Positions 1 to 9,054 of a stretch of DNA of 9,054 nt are shown here, piece by piece. Source of the DNA: Nitrososphaerales archaeon TH5895 (GTDB taxonomy: Archaea; Thermoproteota; Nitrososphaeria; Nitrososphaerales; Nitrososphaeraceae); NCBI GenBank assembly GCA_014523695.1, contig JAATVS010000428.1, forward strand, positions 1 to 9,054, read 5' to 3'. The translations under genes and the position numbers were made by a program. Position 1 is the stretch's first letter. Each line of letters begins with the position of its first letter. The notes below the pieces were generated by a model. The model was not told the DNA's origin and searched no databases. It was given only the letters and a program-made list of their open reading frames with translations.

Positions 1-143
1 ATCAAATATACTATCAAGGCTATCATCATTCAAATTTATTTATCATTCTCACTATCATGTAAATATACCCTCACCCCTGTTTTTCCTTTCCAACATAAGA
101 AGGATACTAAACTAATAGGTGTTAACAACAAGTTAACAAACAG

Positions 144-222
144 TTTTAAACAAGAGAATCAATTATTGTTAATTTTTAGCTTAACTATCTATCAATAAAA
201 ATAATAGATAATGAGATATGGA
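144..222. other. AT-rich stretch, candidate duplex unwinding element
   Basis: Very AT-rich DNA directly beside the inverted ORB-like site at 223-243. It contains a short inverted repeat (186-192 with 204-210). Its position next to ORB elements is what an archaeal duplex unwinding element would show. The functional call is inference from composition and position. Confidence 0.45.
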
Positions 223-243
223 CTACAAAAGAAATCAAGGGGT
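223..243 (+). promoter_or_regulatory. degenerate ORB-like site, inverted relative to the repeats
   Basis: The plus strand from 223 reads CTACAAAAGAAATCAAGGGG followed by T. It matches 16 of 21 positions of the ORB in the 43-bp repeats (CTCCAGTGGAAATAAAGGGG plus T), including the whole AGGGGT end, but the central dyad is poor. It faces the opposite way to the two perfect copies and continues into a run of six G (244-249). Inverted ORBs around an unwinding element are common in archaeal origins. The match was made by eye and could be partly chance. Confidence 0.5.
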
Positions 244-308
244 GGGGGGTTAATACATTATTCAACTGTATGTTAACTCTGGTTTACAATTGTATTTCAC
301 TAACCTAA

Positions 309-351
309 AATGTCTTAAAATAGACCCCTTTATTTCCACTGGAGAGTTAAT
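309..351 (-). repeat. ORB-containing 43-bp direct repeat, copy 1
   Basis: This is the first of two identical 43-bp units, offset by 61 bp. The minus strand of 325-344 reads CTCCAGTGGAAATAAAGGGG, followed by TCTATTTT. Archaeal origin recognition boxes share a CTCCAGTGGAAAC-like dyad followed by A/T and then a G-string (GGGG), and this copy fits closely. The G-string points to lower coordinates. It is probably bound by Orc1/Cdc6. Confidence 0.85.
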
Positions 352-369
352 AACATCTTTAACATTGTT

Positions 370-412
370 AATGTCTTAAAATAGACCCCTTTATTTCCAC
401 TGGAGAGTTAAT
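370..412 (-). repeat. ORB-containing 43-bp direct repeat, copy 2
   Basis: Identical over all 43 bases to the unit at 309-351 and separated from it by an 18-bp spacer (352-369). The ORB core lies at 386-405 on the minus strand. The 61-bp period is close to six turns of B-DNA, so two bound initiators would sit on nearly the same face of the helix. The identity extends beyond the ORB core on both sides, which suggests a recent duplication or constraint on the flanks. Confidence 0.85.
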
Positions 413-559
413 CTGTGCTGCATTTTGTGATTTGTTATTAACAAACAGCGAGATAACGATTTAGTTCTGGCTTCTCATAGTTTTTTCTTAACAGATTACA
501 ACTAGTAAAGCGTGTTAATTATGATTTAAGGTAATGTTAACAATATTCATGGAATCAAT

Positions 560-1201
560 TTATACCGGTTCTAGATTCTGTTCAGTCCTAGTTGTGACAC
601 TCAAGTCATTATCACTATGCAAATCACGTAATTGTCGTAATCCTGTGTCAGTAATGCTATACTTAAATGGCTTAGAACTTGTATCCCTTATCACAAAACC
701 TGAATTGTATAATCCTTTCATTACGCGTGATGTATGTTCGCGTGACCTTCCGACTCGCTCTTGAATTTGCCTCGTCGTCATTGGTTTCTCTCTTAACATT
801 AACAATATTTGCTCTAAAGTATCTAAGTAAGTATGTGTTTGTGTAGATGCAGGTGCAGTTTTCTTTCTTAACTCTTCTATAATCACACCATTTTGTGATA
901 TCATATCAATATCACGTCCTGAGTCTTCCTTTTTACTTTCAATATCACGTGATATTAAATGAGATCTTTCTGACATTTCTAACATATCAACCTTAACTTT
1001 GAGATCTGCAATTGCTTTATCATATACGTGCAGTTTGTCAGCATATTGTTTTATTCTGTTATCAATAATTGCATTTTTTAGGGAACTATTATTATGCCTA
1101 AAGAACTTTATAGCCTTGTAAGATAGGATTATTGCAACTCCAGAAAAAAAAGAAACTACTACCAACAGTAGGGTATGCATGTCATAGCCTTCAAACATCA
1201 C
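560..1201 (-). CDS. membrane-anchored winged-helix DNA-binding protein (MarR/ArsR-like)
   Basis: A 213-residue protein. Residues about 9-27 form one hydrophobic membrane helix, followed by a basic stretch (YKAIKFFRHNN), so by the positive-inside rule the long C-terminal part is cytoplasmic. Residues about 45-80 are charged and helical and may form a coiled coil. Residues about 123-195 form a winged helix: LEQILLMLREKPMTTRQIQE, a recognition helix near SREHTSRVMKGLYNSGFV, and a wing ending in YSITDTGLRQL. It is probably a membrane-tethered transcription factor or nucleoid anchor; the target is unknown. The first possible start is GTG at 1201, immediately followed by ATG at 1198, and ATG at residue 8 is also possible. 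It lies 31 bp behind the gene at 1233-1619 on the same strand and is probably co-transcribed with it, pointing at the ORB region. I do not recognise a named family beyond the fold. Confidence 0.85.
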   Translation of the reverse strand: MMFEGYDMHTLLLVVVSFFSGVAIILSYKAIKFFRHNNSSLKNAIIDNRIKQYADKLHVYDKAIADLKVKVDMLEMSERSHLISRDIESKKEDSGRDIDMISQNGVIIEELRKKTAPASTQTHTYLDTLEQILLMLREKPMTTRQIQERVGRSREHTSRVMKGLYNSGFVIRDTSSKPFKYSITDTGLRQLRDLHSDNDLSVTTRTEQNLEPV

Positions 1202-1232
1202 AACTAGATGTGATATATCATTGATATAACTC

Positions 1233-1619
1233 TTATTTTTGATGAATCAATTTCTGTATTATTTCATCGACAAGTGATATCACGTTACGACTATCATTTT
1301 GGGATACTATATCACGTTTGATGCTCTCAATAAGCTGTGATGTGTTATCTAATATTACTTCTATTGTATGAAATGTTCCTGTATCAATCATGTTTAGATA
1401 TCTTAAGATAATAAGACTATAAAGAACTCCAACGACTTTTTGTTCAGATTGCTTAAGCTGTCTATAATATGCACCTTTACTTATTCTGTCAGGAGGACTC
1501 CTCCCAGAGAATTTATTATAAAGTATATATATCTGGCGTTCAGTAAATAGAGAATTTGTAATAATGTGTTTGATTATATCATTATATTGTATTTCGTTAG
1601 AAGCCAATGTACTATACAA
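1233..1619 (-). CDS. conserved-looking hypothetical protein, possible helix-turn-helix
   Basis: A 128-residue soluble protein of unknown function. There is no signal peptide, membrane helix or cysteine cluster. It looks all-helical: residues 25-37 (FTERQIYILYNKF), a loop with PPDRISKGAYYRQLKQS at 42-58, then a long hydrophobic helix KVVGVLYSLIILRYLNMI at 61-78. This layout resembles a small helix-turn-helix domain of the kind found in thaumarchaeal regulators, but I cannot assign a family. The C-terminal half (88-128) is another helical segment that might dimerise. The only in-frame start before an upstream stop is TTG at 1619 unless a later TTG is used; no ATG occurs near the N-terminus. That rare start leaves the true N-terminus uncertain. 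It is first in a minus-strand pair with the membrane-anchored winged-helix gene (31-bp gap) and divergent from GGGPS. Confidence 0.7.
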   Translation of the reverse strand: MYSTLASNEIQYNDIIKHIITNSLFTERQIYILYNKFSGRSPPDRISKGAYYRQLKQSEQKVVGVLYSLIILRYLNMIDTGTFHTIEVILDNTSQLIESIKRDIVSQNDSRNVISLVDEIIQKLIHQK

Positions 1620-1645
1620 ATTGGTATAGCTAAATAATATCCTTT

Positions 1646-1712
1646 ATGGATTTGACCATGAATTTGACCCATGAATTTGACCCATGAATTTGACCCATGA
1701 ATTTGACCCATG
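1646..1712. repeat. 13-bp tandem repeat in the divergent promoter region
   Basis: Four perfect head-to-tail copies of ATGAATTTGACCC occupy 1658-1670, 1671-1683, 1684-1696 and 1697-1709. They are preceded by a diverged 12-bp unit (ATGGATTTGACC, 1646-1657) and followed by ATG at 1710-1712. The array lies between the TTG start of the minus-strand gene at 1619 and the TATA box of GGGPS at 1729-1736. It may be a set of regulator half-sites or a slippage-prone minisatellite. An open frame crosses it on the minus strand, but the resulting peptide is an artefact of the repeat. Confidence 0.9.
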
Positions 1713-1728
1713 GCTTATCAAAGCAATG

Positions 1729-1736
1729 ATATATAG
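1729..1736 (+). promoter_or_regulatory. TATA-like promoter of the GGGPS-DP2 pair
   Basis: ATATATAG is centred about 26 bp before the GTG start at 1758. That spacing is what an archaeal TBP/TFB promoter would show for a leaderless transcript. It lies 17 bp to the right of the 13-bp repeat array, so a factor bound to the array would sit beside the pre-initiation complex. Confidence 0.55.
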
Positions 1737-1757
1737 TGCTTAAGAATGAACTAGAAT

Positions 1758-2498
1758 GTGGAACACAGGATCGAGAATTACATACTAGACGAATTAAAGA
1801 AGTATGGTACACTGTGCTTTCCACTCATTGATTCAGAAAACTCGACCAATGCAGCACTTATAGGAAATAAGGCTCAGAGTCTAGGTGCATCTGCAATCCT
1901 TATCGGTGGTTCGTCAGCGACAGATCAGATTGAACTAGCAGAAATGGTCTCTACTCTTAAGTCTAAAATCAATATACCTGTAATACTATTTCCAGGTAAT
2001 GTAACTGGAGTTGTACCTAAAGCTGATGCAATTCTTTTCAGCTCCCTACTTAATTCAGAGAATCCTTACTTTATTACTGGGGCACAGGCTTTGGGAGCTT
2101 TGTCAGTTAAAAAATATAACATCGAGTCATTACCTACGGGGTATCTTGTTATAGGTGAACATACAACAGCATGGTTTGTTGGTCACGCTAGGTCTATCCC
2201 TTTTGATAAGGGAGGAATAGCAGTAATGTATGCGTTGGCAGCACAGTACTTAGGGATGAGGTTTCTATACCTTGAGGCCGGATCGGGCGCGGCTCACAGT
2301 ATTCCCACAGATATGATAGCAGCAGTGCGAAAACACTTTACTGGTGTTTTAATCGTAGGTGGTGGCGTTCGTACTCCTGAGAAAGCTAAGGAAATCGCTA
2401 ATGCAGGTGCAGATATAATAGTAGTTGGAACAATAATAGAGAAAGATGATGATTGGGAGAATAAACTATCTTCTATTATACACTCAATAAGGAGATGA
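1758..2498 (+). CDS. geranylgeranylglyceryl phosphate synthase (GGGPS)
   Basis: This enzyme joins geranylgeranyl diphosphate to sn-glycerol-1-phosphate to make the first ether bond of archaeal membrane lipids (EC 2.5.1.41). The 246 residues match the family's length and TIM-barrel pattern. The N-terminal strand ends in LIDSENS (23-29), a glycine pair with GGSS follows at 50-53, then the signature YLEAGSGA at 171-178, IVGGGVRTPE at 199-208 (phosphate-binding loop) and GADIIVVGT at 217-225. The start is GTG at 1758: the frame is closed by a TAG at 1752-1754 and there is no ATG in phase. With a TATA box 22-29 bp upstream, the message is probably leaderless. The bacterial PcrB enzymes are homologous, but YLEAGSGA and the host context favour the archaeal activity. 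It is the first gene of a pair with DP2, 13 bp apart. Confidence 0.96.
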   Translation: MEHRIENYILDELKKYGTLCFPLIDSENSTNAALIGNKAQSLGASAILIGGSSATDQIELAEMVSTLKSKINIPVILFPGNVTGVVPKADAILFSSLLNSENPYFITGAQALGALSVKKYNIESLPTGYLVIGEHTTAWFVGHARSIPFDKGGIAVMYALAAQYLGMRFLYLEAGSGAAHSIPTDMIAAVRKHFTGVLIVGGGVRTPEKAKEIANAGADIIVVGTIIEKDDDWENKLSSIIHSIRR

Positions 2499-2511
2499 TA
2501 ATTACACAATA

Positions 2512-5500
2512 ATGACGATAACTAGCGATGGTGTAACTCGTCTGAGGAATACCCATATGCCAGTTTATTACATGAATTATCAGCAAGACATTCTTAGAAA
2601 AGTCGAGCAAATTTATGAATTAGGTTCGAAAGCAAGAAAAATTGGTCTGGATGCTTCAAATGCAGTTGAGTCCAAAATAGCATACGATCTGGCTGATAGG
2701 GTGGCAAAAATGCATGATATTGATATTGCAAGTAGGCTAAGGACCTTATTAGAACGGACTACTAAAGAAAAAGCGGCACTCAAGATTGCCGAAGAAATTG
2801 CATTAGGAGAACATGATGCGGGAGATCTTAGAACTCGACTTGATAATGCCGTCCGAGTGAGCTTAGCTGTAGTCACAGAAGGTGTGACGGTGGCACCATT
2901 ACAGGGTATCTCCAATGTTCAACTTAAAAATAATTCTGATGGTAGTACCTATCTTTCTATCTCATTTGCTGGCCCAATACGATCTGCTGGAGGAACCGAA
3001 GCGGCACTTACCATGTTAATAGCAGATCACGCTCGAAAAGTTGTTGGTATAAGTAAATACATTGCAAACTCCTACGATGATGAAACTGGTCGATTTGTAG
3101 AAGAACTTCGTATTTATGAACGTGAAGTAGGTAGTTTTCAATTCAAAGTTTTAGACGCAGATGTCATTAAATGCATCAAAAGTTTACCCGTAGAACTTGA
3201 TGGTATTGATACCGATCAGGTAGAGGTTGCAGGCCACAGAAACATGAGGCGCATCTCTACTGATAGGGTACGCGGGGGTGCATTAAGGGTAATGAATGAT
3301 GGTATTATTGGCAGAAGTAGAAAATTACTTAAACTCGTCGAAGCTCTGGACCTTGTTGGCTGGGAGTGGCTTAAAGATCTAAAAGGAGCAGTACAAACTG
3401 GTGATGGTGACGATGCGGCCAATCACAGAATGTCGGAAGTTATTACTGGAAGACCTGTACTTTCTATGCCAAAGCGGTTGGGTGGATTTAGATTAAGATA
3501 TGGCAGGTGTTGTAATACTGGCTTCGCAACAATTGGAATCCATCCTGCAGTTCCAGTTCTTTTAGATCACGCGATAGTTGTTGGAACACAGATAAAAATG
3601 GACGTACCAGGCAAAGCATCAACCATAGCTTTGGTAGATGATATAGATCCACCAATAGTACGACTTAATGATGGGAGTGTTTTGCAAGTAAGAACCGCTG
3701 AACATGCTTCAGTTGTACGACAAAGAATCGAAAAAATTCTTTATCTTGGTGACATACTTATAAGCTATGGTGATTTTCTTGAAAATAATGCTGAGCTGCT
3801 TCCTGCGTCTTACGTAGAAGAGGCATGGCTTCAAGAATTACACTCACATCTGTCAAATTCAAGTATCTCAAACCTGCAAAGATCAGAAATTAATCCCCAA
3901 TCGATTAAACTAATGAGCAAATCATCATTCAAAGACATACCAAATATAAAAGATGCATTTAGGATGAGTCTGATGTTAGGCATACCATTATGTCCAAGAT
4001 ATTCTTTTTTCTGGGAGCACATCAGTATAGATGAAGTATTATTCTTAAAGGAAAACCTAATTTGTTCCTATATTCAGGATGATAATAATGGAGCATCATG
4101 TTCCTATTTCTTAATTAAGAATAATTTTCAATTAAAAGATATTTTGGAGCGACTTGGAGTATACCATTCATTAGTAGATGAACATATTAAAATCGATAAT
4201 CCTGATCAGGTATACTCTTTGCAGAGAATCCTGTTTTCGGATTCTAGCATCCCTACAGAAAGATGTAGTTTACAGTTTTGTGCTAATGATAATATCAAAC
4301 CATTGGATACAATAGAATTTGTCTCATCTATTTCTGGAATTCGATTGATGCCAAAATTTGCTTCTTCAATTGCAGTAAGAGTCGGCCGCCCTGAAAAGGC
4401 TGCAGAACGAAAAATGAAACCTCCAGTTCATGTATTATTCCCTATAGGTTCGAAAGGTGGCTCCACTAGAGATATTCTAAAAGCTTCAAAGACCAAATCA
4501 TCCTTTTTTACAGAAATCGCGAATAGATTTTGTAATAGTTGTAGATTTCCTTCACTAGGAACAAAATGTACTAAATGTGGATCATCCACTCCTATTCGTA
4601 ATTTGTGTATAGTCTGTAGAGAAGAGATCTTGTATAATGGAAAGAACAGTCGTTGTAGGAGATGTGGCAGGGAAGGTAAAACCTATTCGCCTGTTAGCTT
4701 TCCTTTGAGTAAAGTAATTGAGCAAGCTCAACACAAACTCGGTCTAAAGGCTGCAGAACCTTTTAAAGGAGTCAAGGCTCTGATGAGCAAAAATAAATCA
4801 GCAGAATTATTGGAGAAGGGATTGCTGCGACAAAAACATCAGTTGTATGCCTTTAAAGATGGAACTATAAGATTCGATGCAACCAATGAACCACTCACAC
4901 ATTTTAAACCAGTTTGGATAATGACCAATATTGAAAAAATTAAGAAATTAGGATATAATAAGGATTATACTGACAAAGATCTAACTTCATCTGATCAGCT
5001 TATCGAACTATTGCTGCAAGACATAGTCCTACCTCTGGATTGTGCAGAACATCTAGTTAATGTGGCCAAATTTATAGATGAGGAATTAGTAAAAGTATAT
5101 CATCTAGAACCTTACTATGGCATTTCTACTATTGAAGATTTGATAGGTCATTTGATTGTTGGCCTTGCTCCGCACACATCCGTTGGTATTATAGGTAGAA
5201 TTATCGGATTCACAAAATCTCAGGTATGTCTGGCATCTCCTATATGGCATTCAGCAAAGCGAAGAGATTGCGATGGTGATGCTGACTCTATAATGCTCCT
5301 TCTGGATGCATTTCTAAATTTTTCTTTTGATTTTTTGCCCGATAAAATTGGTGGACTTATGGATGCTCCGTTGTTGATTCAGCCTACTGTATTACCTTAT
5401 GAAGTACAGCGACAGGCACACAACGTAGACATATCCTCTTTCTATCCTCTAGAATTCTATGAGGCTACCTGGAATAGAGCTAAAGCAGCAGATATCACTT

Positions 5501-6027
5501 CCAAAATAGAGATCATAAAGAATAGGATTGGAAAAGAGGATCAATTTTTCAACTATATGTTTACACATTTTACTGAATCATTAACAACAAATGTTCAACA
5601 TAGTGCATATTCTAGATTAAATACTATGGATGAAAAGTTGCAGATGCAAATATCTACTGCAAGATTAATTAATGCAGTTGATGAAGATGAAGTAGTATCA
5701 ATGGTACTAACTACACATATCTTACCTGATATAATGGGCAACATGAGAGCCTATTCCTCTCAGACATTTAGATGTAGTAAATGTGCAGAAAAATATCGCA
5801 GAATTCCATTACGTGGTAATTGTCTTAGATGTGAAAATGAATTATTACAAACAGTAACAAGAGGTTCTGTTGAGAAATATCTTAATATTGCACATTATAT
5901 GTGTAGAGAATTTAAGATTAATGATTATCTGCGTAACAGAGTAGAATCTCTAACTACCGAATTGAAACTGATCTTTCGAGAACAAAAGAAGGAACAATCT
6001 ACACTGATTGAATTCATGAATAAATAA
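2512..6027 (+). CDS. polC: DNA polymerase D large subunit DP2 (PolD catalytic subunit)
   Basis: This is the catalytic subunit of the archaeal replicative polymerase PolD; it pairs with the exonuclease subunit DP1, whose gene is not in the window. Landmarks of the 1171 residues: an N-terminal helical domain; GPIRSAGGTEAA at 154-165; DRVRGGALRV around 253; a double-psi-barrel motif FPIGSKGGS around 643-651; zinc-binding Cys pairs at 674/677, 686/689, 699/702 and 715/718; the catalytic motif AKRRDCDGDAD with the two essential aspartates at 921 and 923; and a C-terminal zinc finger (1088/1091, 1104/1107). The last residues, QSTLIEFM (1162-1169), resemble a PCNA-interacting PIP box. No intein interrupts the CDGD motif, unlike in some euryarchaea. 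The start is uncertain: ATG at 2512 has only a distant AGGAG, ATG at 2557 follows GAGGA with 8-bp spacing, and ATG at 2572 is also possible. Residue numbers assume 2512. Confidence 0.98.
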   Translation: MTITSDGVTRLRNTHMPVYYMNYQQDILRKVEQIYELGSKARKIGLDASNAVESKIAYDLADRVAKMHDIDIASRLRTLLERTTKEKAALKIAEEIALGEHDAGDLRTRLDNAVRVSLAVVTEGVTVAPLQGISNVQLKNNSDGSTYLSISFAGPIRSAGGTEAALTMLIADHARKVVGISKYIANSYDDETGRFVEELRIYEREVGSFQFKVLDADVIKCIKSLPVELDGIDTDQVEVAGHRNMRRISTDRVRGGALRVMNDGIIGRSRKLLKLVEALDLVGWEWLKDLKGAVQTGDGDDAANHRMSEVITGRPVLSMPKRLGGFRLRYGRCCNTGFATIGIHPAVPVLLDHAIVVGTQIKMDVPGKASTIALVDDIDPPIVRLNDGSVLQVRTAEHASVVRQRIEKILYLGDILISYGDFLENNAELLPASYVEEAWLQELHSHLSNSSISNLQRSEINPQSIKLMSKSSFKDIPNIKDAFRMSLMLGIPLCPRYSFFWEHISIDEVLFLKENLICSYIQDDNNGASCSYFLIKNNFQLKDILERLGVYHSLVDEHIKIDNPDQVYSLQRILFSDSSIPTERCSLQFCANDNIKPLDTIEFVSSISGIRLMPKFASSIAVRVGRPEKAAERKMKPPVHVLFPIGSKGGSTRDILKASKTKSSFFTEIANRFCNSCRFPSLGTKCTKCGSSTPIRNLCIVCREEILYNGKNSRCRRCGREGKTYSPVSFPLSKVIEQAQHKLGLKAAEPFKGVKALMSKNKSAELLEKGLLRQKHQLYAFKDGTIRFDATNEPLTHFKPVWIMTNIEKIKKLGYNKDYTDKDLTSSDQLIELLLQDIVLPLDCAEHLVNVAKFIDEELVKVYHLEPYYGISTIEDLIGHLIVGLAPHTSVGIIGRIIGFTKSQVCLASPIWHSAKRRDCDGDADSIMLLLDAFLNFSFDFLPDKIGGLMDAPLLIQPTVLPYEVQRQAHNVDISSFYPLEFYEATWNRAKAADITSKIEIIKNRIGKEDQFFNYMFTHFTESLTTNVQHSAYSRLNTMDEKLQMQISTARLINAVDEDEVVSMVLTTHILPDIMGNMRAYSSQTFRCSKCAEKYRRIPLRGNCLRCENELLQTVTRGSVEKYLNIAHYMCREFKINDYLRNRVESLTTELKLIFREQKKEQSTLIEFMNK

Positions 6028-6070
6028 TAAAAAATAACTAATGGTGATTGATTATATTGATAATATTTTG
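6028..6070. terminator. bidirectional AT-rich terminator between convergent DP2 and glyA
   Basis: Only 43 bp separate the two convergent stop codons. For DP2 the plus strand gives a T-rich run beginning about 6064 (ATTTTGTTATTGTTT), which runs over the glyA stop. For glyA the minus strand of 6022-6037 is a T-rich stretch containing six T in a row. Archaeal termination usually relies on such T-rich tracts rather than strong hairpins. The call rests on composition and position. Confidence 0.5.
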
Positions 6071-7399
6071 TTATTGTTTAGACCTATTAACTAGACTAAT
6101 ATACTCATATGCACCTGTTATGTTGTCGAATGTATAGTGGACTTTTTGAAACTCTTTTCTAAAATTGGATACATCCTTTGCAACAATAGTCGGATTCTCC
6201 TTTTCAATCACTACTCGTTTTATAAAATGAGCGATATCTATCATTTGATCTTCTTTCATTCCTAGCCTAGTAACCTCAGGAACTCCGATCCTTATCCCAC
6301 TGGGATGCATATAATGTCTCCCCGCTTTAATGTCCCCCGGCAATAGTTGTCTATTCAAAATTATATTCGCATTTTCCAAATCTTTTTCAACAGTTCCACC
6401 ATCACCAAACTTTGATACATCAACAGCAATTTGATGTGACTCAGTGTATCCTCTCTTTTCTCCTAATACTCCAAAACCTAAACCTGCAAGCTGTTCTCCA
6501 AGTTTTTGGGCATTCGCGATTACCTGTGTAGCATACTCTTTTCCAAACTCTAGTGATTCCGTCAATGCAATTGCCTTACCTGCGACATGATGAAGATGGT
6601 GACTACTAGTATTACCAGGGAAGATTGCCTTTTTTATGGATTCTGCGTATTTATCATACGAAACTATAATCCCTCCTTGGGGACCCCATAAAGTTTTATG
6701 TGAGCTCATCGTCATCGTATCGACTCCCTCTCTTAATGGATCTTGAAATCTACCTCCGGCAATTAGACCAGCCACATGAGCTCCGTCGTAATTAATATGA
6801 ATATTGTAATCGTGCATAAAGTCAGCTAATTCCTTTACAGGATGAGGGAAAAGAAATAGACTGCCTCCAAACATTCCTAACTTTGGCGTCTTACCCGATC
6901 TAGCCATTTCTTCGATCTTTTTCTTTGTTGCATCTACATCGATGGTCATTTCTTCCTTTGAGAAAGGATAATGTTCTATATTCAATCCATGTACTAAACC
7001 AGCAGTACCAGAATGTTCTTTCTTGCCATGTGAAATATGACCGCCAGTGGGTATAGATGCAGCAATCATATAGTCGCCTGGATCTGAGAATGCAGAATAT
7101 ATTGCAAGATTTGCTACCACTCCGGATGTTGCCCTACAGTCTGCAAATTCCGCACCAAAGACTCTCTTCGCTAAATCATTACATATTATCTCTACTTGAT
7201 CTATATACGTACAACCTGCATAGACTCTCTCGCCAGGCCATCCTTCTGCATACCTATTTCCGAAATCAGATATAATTGCCTCTCTTACTGCTGGACTCGG
7301 TATATTCTCACTAGCAATTAATGGGATAGAGTTGTTGAACCATTCATGATGTTTTCTTAATAAACCTAATACTTTATCAAATAACTCATTCGTATCCAT
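6071..7399 (-). CDS. glyA: serine hydroxymethyltransferase
   Basis: A PLP enzyme that interconverts serine and glycine and transfers the one-carbon unit to a reduced pterin (tetrahydrofolate type, or the archaeal analogue; the sequence does not decide). The 442 residues are slightly longer than most bacterial forms. Visible motifs: LIASENIPSPAVREA (27-41), NRYAEGWPGERVYAGCTYID (48-67), the pyridine-nitrogen aspartate in NYDGAHVAGLI (Asp205), and MSSHKTLWGPQGG with the Schiff-base lysine Lys235. The C-terminal domain contains the substrate-carboxylate arginine region HPSGIRIGVPEVTRLG. The ATG at 7399 follows a TATA-like box at 7426-7434, giving a very short leader. It is convergent with DP2 and has a long empty upstream region, so it is probably a single-gene transcript. 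In the cytoplasm it supplies glycine and one-carbon units for purine, thymidylate and methionine synthesis. Confidence 0.98.
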   Translation of the reverse strand: MDTNELFDKVLGLLRKHHEWFNNSIPLIASENIPSPAVREAIISDFGNRYAEGWPGERVYAGCTYIDQVEIICNDLAKRVFGAEFADCRATSGVVANLAIYSAFSDPGDYMIAASIPTGGHISHGKKEHSGTAGLVHGLNIEHYPFSKEEMTIDVDATKKKIEEMARSGKTPKLGMFGGSLFLFPHPVKELADFMHDYNIHINYDGAHVAGLIAGGRFQDPLREGVDTMTMSSHKTLWGPQGGIIVSYDKYAESIKKAIFPGNTSSHHLHHVAGKAIALTESLEFGKEYATQVIANAQKLGEQLAGLGFGVLGEKRGYTESHQIAVDVSKFGDGGTVEKDLENANIILNRQLLPGDIKAGRHYMHPSGIRIGVPEVTRLGMKEDQMIDIAHFIKRVVIEKENPTIVAKDVSNFRKEFQKVHYTFDNITGAYEYISLVNRSKQ

Positions 7400-7425
7400 T
7401 ATTTACTAGTTTCGTTTTCTGTCCT

Positions 7426-7434
7426 AATTTAAAA
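7426..7434 (-). promoter_or_regulatory. TATA-like promoter of glyA
   Basis: The minus strand reads TTTTAAATT here, centred about 31 bp before the glyA ATG at 7399. With archaeal spacing the transcript would begin about 5 bases before the start codon. Confidence 0.5.
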
Positions 7435-8066
7435 CATTGCATAAACACACAAATAATCTGATCTAATCTTTATTTTTGAAAATCTAGAAATAAGTCAAAT
7501 CTATAATGTCTTACGAGAATTACTATTCTTCCACTTTCCATAGATAGCAAATTCATTTAGTAGTTTTCCTTTACGTTTGTAGTTGGGACTAATCTTATTG
7601 CTTCAATTTATAGTTCTGATTAGAACATATTTGATACATGGGAAATAGCAACTCCTGCTTTTGATTTAGAATATGGCGAATCCCGTCTACAGTCACAAAC
7701 AAGCACCATCTTTGACCTACTGGAATCCTATCTTGATCTGTAATCTCAGAATTCAGCTATAATAGTATAGAATCTGGGAATATTTTTCTACTAAATGCTA
7801 GCAATTCGAACTTTCACTAATATCAACGCATATAGTACATGTCATATACAACAGTATGATACATGTATGCTTAAGAAAGGTTCCATGACGGCAGTAAGTG
7901 AATTATATTTACAAATTATCTGGACTTATTATACATTAAATATATAAAAAATCATCAGCTTTACAAATATTTTCAAGAATAATCATATTTAGGATTAGAT
8001 CTAGGATCATGGTATTATAACGATAATCTAAAAAAGGATAAGTCTCGCTAGGCTTTCTGACAATCA
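7435..8066. other. long intergenic region without a convincing gene
   Basis: I see no tRNA, rRNA or well-supported coding region here. Contents: an imperfect palindrome at 7828-7870, a very AT-rich tract at about 7898-7950, and on the minus strand a 53-codon open stretch (7598-7756) without a start codon that can be extended to 7813 only through an in-frame TAG. A 20-codon ATG frame on the plus strand (7885-7947) has no support. Composition resembles ordinary non-coding DNA of the window. It could hide a non-coding RNA or a decayed gene. Confidence 0.6.
7828..7870. repeat. imperfect inverted repeat (43 bp)
   Basis: Left arm GCATA (7828-7832) and TACATGTCATA (7836-7846); right arm TATGATACATGTA (7855-7867) and TATGC at its end (7866-7870). 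The arms pair in blocks (TACATG/CATGTA, TCATA/TATGA, GCATA/TATGC) with small bulges and an 8-base loop. It could form a bulged hairpin in RNA or be a dyad for a regulator. It lies in mid-intergenic DNA, over 400 bp from glyA and over 200 bp from the zinc-ribbon gene. Confidence 0.6.
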
Positions 8067-8074
8067 TTTTATAC
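8067..8074 (+). promoter_or_regulatory. TATA-like promoter of the small zinc-ribbon gene
   Basis: TTTTATAC lies 31-38 bp before the ATG at 8105. A transcript starting about 26 bp downstream would carry a leader of only some 8 bases. No other good TATA box is visible between it and the gene. Confidence 0.5.
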
Positions 8075-8104
8075 ACCACTTCTTTTATCTAGGCTCTTTA
8101 CTGC

Positions 8105-8248
8105 ATGAGTATGGAAGCATATTGCGTTAAGTGTAAGTCAAAAAGACTAATGAAAGATGAAAAAAAGGTCACAATGAAGAATGGTAAACCAGCTACCCAG
8201 GGCATTTGTACTACTTGCGGAACTAAAATGTTTAGAATAGGTAAATGA
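8105..8248 (+). CDS. small zinc-ribbon protein, DUF5679-like (47 aa)
   Basis: A 47-residue protein beginning MSMEAYCVKCKSKR and ending in CTTCGTKMFRIGK. The two CxxC pairs (Cys7/Cys10 and Cys35/Cys38) are 24 residues apart and would bind one zinc as a compact ribbon. Between them is a very basic segment with many Lys (KSKRLMKDEKKVTMKNGKPA). The pattern of a short N-terminus, YCVKCK, a basic linker, then G-x-C-x2-CG-TKMFRI is that of the DUF5679 family common in archaea and some bacteria; its role is unknown, though nucleic-acid binding is plausible. ATG at 8105 is the natural start (residue 3 is a second Met) and TGA is at 8246. It stands alone between non-coding regions, with its own TATA-like box and a hairpin about 25 bp after its stop. 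Confidence 0.87.
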   Translation: MSMEAYCVKCKSKRLMKDEKKVTMKNGKPATQGICTTCGTKMFRIGK

Positions 8249-8272
8249 TTTCTAAAAGTATAGGACATTGCC

Positions 8273-8311
8273 ATCTCCCGTGTTGATGGGGAGATACAAT
8301 ACAATGTTTTT
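8273..8311 (+). terminator. hairpin followed by short T-run, putative terminator of the zinc-ribbon gene
   Basis: ATCTCCC (8273-8279) pairs perfectly with GGGAGAT (8289-8295) around a 9-base loop. Eleven bases later comes a run of five T (8307-8311). The hairpin is 24 bp past the stop codon. Archaea do not depend on intrinsic hairpins in the bacterial way, and the T-run is not adjacent, so this is a moderate call. Confidence 0.4.
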
Positions 8312-8515
8312 GCAACCTTATTTGATTGCAAATATCGTAGATATTATAATATTGTAAATTACCTTTTTAATTTTTTAGGTTGAAGTTGCTTTAATAAGGC
8401 ATAAAATATGAACTTTTGGATCACATGGTCAAAAAGTGTTGGAAAGTAGCCAGAGGCTGAGCTGTACGGATTATTGCTATACTGGAGCTTTCTGCTTACC
8501 CCTTTCCTAATTTGA
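8312..8515. other. intergenic region between convergent small genes
   Basis: No gene is seen. A T-rich tract at 8362-8379 could end rightward transcription. A GC-richer segment at about 8440-8500 contains the short stem AGCC/GGCT (8448-8451 with 8455-8458) but no recognisable RNA fold. Confidence 0.5.
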
Positions 8516-8875
8516 TTAATTATCATTGACTACGAAGTTCTTGTCATTATCATTGCCATTATCATTATCATTACTAGTACTATTATGTCCTATGTTAATG
8601 TCCTTATCAGTTACAGCTATTGTTGTAAGTGGTGGTACTAATTCATACATTTTGTTATAGATGTGTAGTAAACGCATTCCTTTTTCTGTTGTTCTATATG
8701 TCTGCTTCCCACCTTCATATTCGATAAGTCCATTGTCCTGTAACATTGTAAGATATTCTCGGAGCTGAGCAAATGATAGAAATGCTTTATACATTATTTT
8801 TGTCTTATTAGCTCCTCCTCCATTTGCAGCCTCTAAGATCAGACCCACAATTTCTGTTCTACTTCTGTATTTCAT
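8516..8875 (-). CDS. small winged-helix protein (HTH_45-like transcriptional regulator)
   Basis: A 119-residue soluble DNA-binding protein. Residues about 1-75 form a winged helix of the kind abundant in Nitrososphaeria: helix 1 RTEIVGLILEAANGG (6-20), NKTKIMYKAFLSFAQLREYL with the recognition helix at about 34-47, MLQDNGLIEYE (44-54), and a wing ending in YRTTEKGMRLLHIYNKM (60-76). The match is to the archaeal HTH_45-type single-domain regulators; the target is unknown. The C-terminus from about 98 is a low-complexity Asn/Asp tail (STSNDNDNGNDNDKN) encoded by a 6-bp repeat and is likely disordered. ATG at 8875 sits just behind a TATA-like box at 8902-8912. It is convergent with the zinc-ribbon gene and appears monocistronic. 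Confidence 0.86.
   Translation of the reverse strand: MKYRSRTEIVGLILEAANGGGANKTKIMYKAFLSFAQLREYLTMLQDNGLIEYEGGKQTYRTTEKGMRLLHIYNKMYELVPPLTTIAVTDKDINIGHNSTSNDNDNGNDNDKNFVVNDN
8545..8573. repeat. hexanucleotide CATTAT repeat inside the winged-helix gene
   Basis: Nearly five tandem units of CATTAT (one changed to CATTGC) run from 8545 to 8573. They encode the alternating Asn/Asp tail of the winged-helix protein on the minus strand. Change in unit number would alter tail length by two residues per unit without shifting the frame. Confidence 0.8.
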
Positions 8876-8901
8876 GATAAAATCAAATAGAACATGTAAA
8901 C

Positions 8902-8912
8902 TAAATATTTAT
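8902..8912 (-). promoter_or_regulatory. TATA-like promoter of the winged-helix gene
   Basis: On the minus strand this reads ATAAATATTTA, centred about 32 bp before the ATG at 8875. Transcription would begin within some 6 bases of the start codon, giving a leaderless or nearly leaderless message as for other genes here. Confidence 0.55.
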
Positions 8913-8932
8913 GTGAACCTTCTATTATTACT

Positions 8933-8993
8933 GATAATTACATTAGTATGTATTTAATTAAAATATTTAGCTGTTGTATCAATTGTAATTATC
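8933..8993. repeat. 10-bp perfect inverted repeat with wide spacing
   Basis: GATAATTACA (8933-8942) is the exact reverse complement of TGTAATTATC (8984-8993), separated by 41 bp of AT-rich DNA. It lies upstream of the winged-helix gene's TATA box and could be a pair of operator half-sites; in such AT-rich DNA chance is also possible. The rest of the right end (to 9054) shows no gene. Confidence 0.4.
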
Positions 8994-9054
8994 TGATCTT
9001 AGAAGTGATCATTCTACTGGAAAAAGAATACATTCATAATTATCGTGCTAATAC

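Follow-up and report, generated by a model that had tools for sequence, protein, structure and literature searches.

The window analysed here, meaning the whole stretch of 9,054 bp, is the complete contig C291 of the Nitrososphaerales archaeon TH5895 assembly (3.88 Mb, 719 contigs). Its left edge carries the beginning of an orc1/cdc6 gene, followed by a TTAAC/GTTAA-rich region and then by genes for a winged-helix protein, an uncharacterised protein designated p128, geranylgeranylglyceryl phosphate synthase (GGGPS) and the large subunit of DNA polymerase D, DP2 (Table 1). At the opposite edge, exact copies of the final 141 bp (8914-9054) open contigs C607 and C142, a pattern suggestive of assembly-graph overlap at a repeat.

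Self-comparison of the window revealed two direct repeats of 43 nt that are 100% identical, the longest repeat expected by chance being about 14 nt, and their start-to-start distance of 61 leaves a spacer of 18 bp. The minus strand of both copies holds CTCCAGTGGAAATAAAGGGG, with the dyad plus G-string of the origin recognition boxes (ORBs) bound by Orc1/Cdc6. A sequence-only reading of this DNA had described precisely this arrangement of two perfect repeats, an 18-bp spacer and a minus-strand ORB core, and both the repeat search and the pattern search bore it out. To score the elements, an ORB matrix was built from 32 sites of relatives, leaving out TH5895's own genus; the elements C and D, one in each repeat, rank first in the 9-kb window, followed by two weak sites, A and B, the next site falling to -1.8 bits.

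Table 1. Positions of the origin elements and neighbouring genes in the window.
Feature	Position	Strand	Remarks
orc1/cdc6, first 11 codons	1..33	-	TTG start; cut at contig end; reads LNDDSLDSIFD
Whole origin region	34..559	.	TTAAC/GTTAA-rich: 16 occurrences in 524 bp vs 2.8 in shuffles; AT 70.7%
ORB A, weak ORB-like	71..96	-	6.1 bits, third-best site in window; columns conserved in 19 aligned origins
AT-rich stretch, predicted duplex-unwinding element	97..219	.	78.0% AT vs 64.8% for window
TTTTAAAC-N5-AATCAA, conserved motif within AT-rich stretch	144..162	.	19-origin alignment
ORB B, weak ORB-like	220..245	+	4.7 bits, fourth-best site in window; orientation opposite to A
43-bp repeat copy 1	309..351	.	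Holds ORB C (322-347, minus); 41.4 bits of a possible 46.0
18-bp spacer	352..369	.	Spacer and flanks hold TTAACATTGTTAA at 359-371
43-bp repeat copy 2	370..412	.	Holds ORB D (383-408, minus); 41.4 bits
213-aa protein: N-terminal transmembrane helix, coiled linker, C-terminal winged helix	560..1201	-	TrmB match 29.9 bits, cut-off 25.6
p128, 128 aa, predicted all-helical, uncharacterised	1233..1619	-	Model pLDDT 81.5
GGGPS	1758..2498	+	Profile matches
DNA polymerase D large subunit DP2	2512..6027	+	Profile matches

Allowing up to two mismatches, CCAGTGGAAAYNNAGGGG has five matches in the whole assembly. Four of these are exact, two on C291 and two at the same locus of a sister contig, C246; the fifth, on C442, carries two mismatches, and the reversed pattern used as a control gave none. 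As the exact core is thus confined to one locus type, the ORB pair is not dispersed. Occurrence of the repeat at many unrelated sites, which the sequence-only reading had named as evidence against an origin, was therefore not what we found, and a dispersed or mobile repeat was ruled out. A structured RNA was also discarded, with no Rfam match anywhere in the window.

The weak elements A (minus) and B (plus) are inverted around the AT-rich stretch, whose composition is equalled by 1.3% of 123-bp windows and which is likely to be the unwinding element. Scanning 800 kb sampled from a relative (G049) with the matrix yielded nine sites of at least 5 bits, five of at least 8 and three of at least 10, so that A and B alone are not outstanding genome-wide, and in some relatives one or the other drops below zero. 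It is their place, orientation and conservation, not their score, that carry the argument for them. The 38 ORB sites compared had been chosen by a pattern with one substitution allowed, so that invariance within this pattern is partly due to selection; a T flanking the pattern on either side, outside the selected positions, is kept in 38/38 sites. The sequence-only reading had taken the repeat pair to mark a probable origin; the predicted origin is larger than the pair, adding A, B and the AT core to the left of position 309.

The sequence-only reading had also suggested that an orc1/cdc6 gene would be found within a few kb to the left. Its first 11 codons stand at the very edge of the window, and a complete gene encoding 408 aa occupies the corresponding place on C246, its product scoring 373.7 bits with TIGR02928 (cut-off 181.3). 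The closest named genome, that of Nitrososphaerales archaeon TH526, shows 94% in Cdc6. The nearest solved chains are 2v1u (322 bits) and 2qby_A (299 bits), which represent Aeropyrum and Sulfolobus Orc1 bound to ORB DNA, 2qby_B scoring far lower (147 bits). By its sequence, the initiator would thus belong to the ORB-binding Orc1 type.

Conservation of the ORB pair and TTAAC motif; strand skew

The sequence-only reading had proposed a scan of related genomes for the same repeat in the same place. We surveyed 151 genomes of the order for a Cdc6 match (E <= 0.001) and for the ORB core with at most one mismatch. A Cdc6 match was found in 134, in some solely to a distant paralogue, and the core in 75, the reversed control giving one match each in 11 genomes. 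Within TH5895's own family, the core lies upstream of cdc6 in 30 of the 34 genomes (counting G056 if its contig is circular), the nearest ORB falling within ~0.52 kb of the cdc6 match, and the expectation of conservation thus held. Among the family genomes without the core, the contig of G143 ends 108 bp past cdc6, the sole Cdc6 match of G104 is a distant one, and no Cdc6 match was obtained in G125 or G140.

Scanning 120 loci for ORB pairs spaced by 57-66 bp retrieved 52, with a pitch of 61 bp in 32 loci, 62 in 16, and 60 and 64 in two each. At 10.5 bp per turn, 61 bp correspond to 5.8 helical turns, which would place C and D on nearly one face of the helix. One family, f9, keeps the layout with an altered core (GGAGTGGAAATAAAGGGG in 6/10 D elements); allowing at most four mismatches, C and D are recognised in 10/10 of its loci, B in 9/10 and A in 6/10. 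Named loci of Nitrosopumilus, Nitrosarchaeum and Nitrosopelagicus show like variants, which is why we take f9 to be Nitrosopumilaceae.

The space between the paired ORBs is conserved too. With up to three mismatches, TTAACnnTGTTAA occurs in 49 of the 52 spacers (the exceptions being L104, L105 and L106) against 10.9% of letter-shuffled spacers, although the 52 loci are related and the 49 are therefore not independent cases. More broadly, TTAAC/GTTAA exceeded dinucleotide-preserving shuffles in 29/29 origins (largest p 0.005). The origin of G049 contains 14 occurrences, the maximum in other 500-bp stretches being 7 in the 800 kb sampled, and that of G117 contains 16, exceeded in the G117 samples solely by one tandem repeat (28). 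In the literature searched, we recognised no description of the TTAAC motif or of the three origin-linked genes considered below.

Strand skews were computed from 20-kb samples of three relatives (G049, n=40; G117, n=20; G083, n=40), with four skews per genome, uncorrected p values and one all-N sample of G083 set to the mean. In G049, the keto-amino skew has its minimum at 515 kb and its maximum at 2316 kb, the origin lying at 565 kb and its antipode at 2280 kb (p 0.032), while the other skews are not significant (GC p 0.42, AT p 0.13, RY p 0.39). In G117, whose origin lies at 828 kb, all four are significant (p 0.018-0.031) and their extrema fall 78-222 kb away from it; in G083, none of the four is significant (p 0.13-0.29; GC p 0.20). 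The skew inflection anticipated by the sequence-only reading is hence seen, among these sampled relatives, in every skew of G117 and in the keto-amino skew of G049, but neither in the GC skew of G049 nor in any skew of G083. Skew support for the origin is weak and mixed, and GC skew was dropped as proof of an origin, there being no significant GC extremum in G049 or G083.

Genes linked to the probable origin

Gene order was compared in 11 of 17 families, comprising 19 loci of TH5895's own family and 20 loci of ten others. The widely retained order is cdc6, origin, acid193, winged-helix gene, p128, GGGPS and DP2, acid193 coding for a small protein whose C-terminus is predicted to form a winged helix. 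Both the winged-helix gene and p128 stand beside the origin in 19/19 own-family loci and 20/20 elsewhere, a total of 39 out of 39 Nitrososphaerales loci compared for gene order. The hydrophobic N-terminal helix of the winged-helix protein is present in 69/71 relatives; p128 matches no Pfam or NCBIfam family above cut-off. In the ten other families, acid193, the winged-helix gene, p128 and GGGPS are all found at the cdc6 locus (20/20), with a rearranged order in L103. Within the own family, acid193 is at the cdc6 locus in 13/19 cases, being absent from it in the window, C246, G128, G113, G032 and G119; the TH5895 assembly carries it on a separate contig, C164.

A further 80 named loci were considered. 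Seventeen belong to Bathyarchaeota (e.g. L236, L249); 13 of these extend 2.5 kb or more upstream of cdc6, and all 13 carry acid193 there. It also adjoins cdc6 in three of four Asgard loci, two from Hermodarchaeota and one from a Njordarchaeum (L245, L256, L258), and was not found beside cdc6 in the fourth, from Heimdallarchaeota. None of acid193, the winged-helix gene and p128 was found at the loci of Methanolobus (L273, L283), Archaeoglobaceae (L271, L274, L288), Caldarchaeum type (L234, L262, L276) or Thermococci (L242, L251, L255). One Nitrososphaerales locus, L257, is without ORB, acid193, winged-helix gene and p128.

Two further features of the window lie among or beyond these genes. Between p128 and GGGPS, positions 1646-1712 hold a 13-bp tandem repeat of 5.2 copies (ATGAATTTGACCC), whose unit CCATGAATTTGAC is not present on the sister contig C246. 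Farther right, 8516-8875 on the minus strand encodes a 119-aa relative of the Sso10a family of chromatin proteins (NF053610, 88.9 bits against a cut-off of 60).

Origin reading and its alternatives

The repeats match Cdc6 docking sites and adjoin the start of cdc6, so that copying of the chromosome likely begins here. We therefore read the ORB pair, together with the weak inverted A and B around the AT-rich stretch beside cdc6, as a chromosomal replication origin, with a probability of roughly 0.9. The earlier proposal of an origin is supported by the ORB pair, the adjacent cdc6 and the conservation in relatives. Orc1/Cdc6 from the adjacent gene is predicted to bind strongly at C and D and weakly at A and B; the AT-rich stretch flanked by A and B would receive the MCM helicase and open, letting forks depart both ways. 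By analogy with the mechanism outlined in the relevant parts of PMC12141716 and PMC4010727, Orc1/Cdc6 would bind the ORBs with a polarity and recruit MCM to the AT core.

The origin could be genuine and still be one of several, or dormant. A second, distant Cdc6 (L004, L070; 29% identity) is encoded on contig C40, three orc1/cdc6 genes are reported in N. evergladensis (PMC4084955, in part) and several archaea use multiple origins (PMC4010727 and PMC5333045, in the parts concerned), yet no ORB occurs on the 3.5-kb C40 with up to three mismatches, and mapping in N. maritimus gave a single origin according to the corresponding part of PMC4010727. We judge this reading unlikely.

Rather less probable still is that the genome really holds two copies of the origin, on C291 and C246. 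In favour of this, both contigs belong to the same bin, and ribosomal protein S8 occurs there as a single copy. Against it, C246 is collinear with positions 1-4394 of the window at 88.6% identity, an overlap of 4.4 kb that reaches as far as the end of C246, and other assembly matches to window 4395-9054 are short, the longest, of 332 bp at 84%, lying where C429 begins. Furthermore, the same-genus genome G128 has one ORB pair, and the bin consists of 719 contigs. Two co-binned strains are the simplest account of C246 and C291, although not a proven one.

The ORB pair might finally serve chiefly as an operator for autocontrol of Orc1/Cdc6, replication beginning elsewhere, and since the ORBs precede the start of cdc6 by 289 bp, their binding could indeed affect cdc6 transcription too, but we consider this the least credible reading and very improbable, for four ORBs with inverted polarity and an AT core exceed the needs of an operator, the assembly is without any other exact ORB site, and in some families C and D keep their place even where 1 to 1.7 kb separate cdc6 from the next gene.

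Regarding the replication origin itself, the conserved neighbours invite a guess, namely that the TTAAC field is recognised by the membrane winged-helix protein, which would tether the origin or regulate it. A fuller version can be sketched tentatively, and we consider it possible but doubtful: the TTAAC field, including TTAACnnTGTTAA, would be read by this single-pass membrane protein, tethering the origin to the membrane and acting with p128 and acid193, acid193 having kept its place next to cdc6 from a time before the divergence of Nitrososphaeria, Bathyarchaeia and some Asgard lineages, so that the whole would form a larger, anciently conserved machine than ORBs and Cdc6.

Comparison with known origins

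The ORB/Orc1 type of origin is already known, with thaumarchaeal cases in print. The sequence-only reading had described ORB architecture as much less documented in this phylum, a statement that needs correction, since thaumarchaeal ORB-cdc6 origins are treated in parts of PMC4010727 and PMC5797428. The present analysis adds that the origin extends over four ORBs, that the initiator gene starts at the edge of the window, that the spacer holds a TTAAC motif, and that several genes are linked to the origin. This provides exact origin coordinates for a lineage with few mapped origins, and a layout that can be recognised in fragmented genomes: C, the TTAAC motif and D at about 61 bp, along with weak inverted ORBs and an AT core. 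The conserved neighbours make it directly testable which factors beyond Orc1/Cdc6 act at archaeal origins, and the presence of acid193 next to cdc6 in Bathyarchaeota and in some Asgard archaea is relevant to origin control close to the root of eukaryotes.

Within the phylum, the single origin of Nitrosopumilus maritimus was mapped by marker frequency, as cited in part of PMC4010727, and analogy with it served to locate that of Ca. Nitrosocaldus cavascurensis, next to ORB repeats and cdc (PMC5797428, in the section concerned). As in both of these, the ORB repeats of TH5895 directly adjoin cdc6 (same part of PMC5797428). The ORB core of TH5895's family is CCAGTGGAAATAAAGGGG, Nitrosopumilaceae-type loci having instead a variant, mostly the one given above for f9. 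The N. maritimus origin has been mapped in vivo, whereas that of the TH5895 lineage is predicted from sequence.

In Pyrococcus and Thermococcales, as described in part of PMC2643942, cdc6 and a gene of the replicative polymerase D likewise lie near oriC. In TH5895, the polymerase D gene concerned is DP2, separated from the origin by the winged-helix, p128 and GGGPS genes on the side away from cdc6. The first two of these were not found next to cdc6 in any of the three Thermococci loci listed above.

The resemblance extends to Sulfolobus oriC1 (Orc1-1, ORB1-3, ucm/UBP), where, according to the pertinent part of PMC12141716, the same kind of ORB stands beside the Orc1 gene and two inverted ORBs flank an AT-rich unwinding element that holds a conserved motif. 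The motif TTTTAAAC-N5-AATCAA occupies the place matching the 11-bp, UBP-bound ucm of Sulfolobus, a comparison made by eye only with the published oligonucleotide. Unlike in oriC1, the strong ORBs of TH5895 form a tandem pair outside the AT core, the ORBs flanking this core are weak, and TTAACnnTGTTAA lies between the strong ones.
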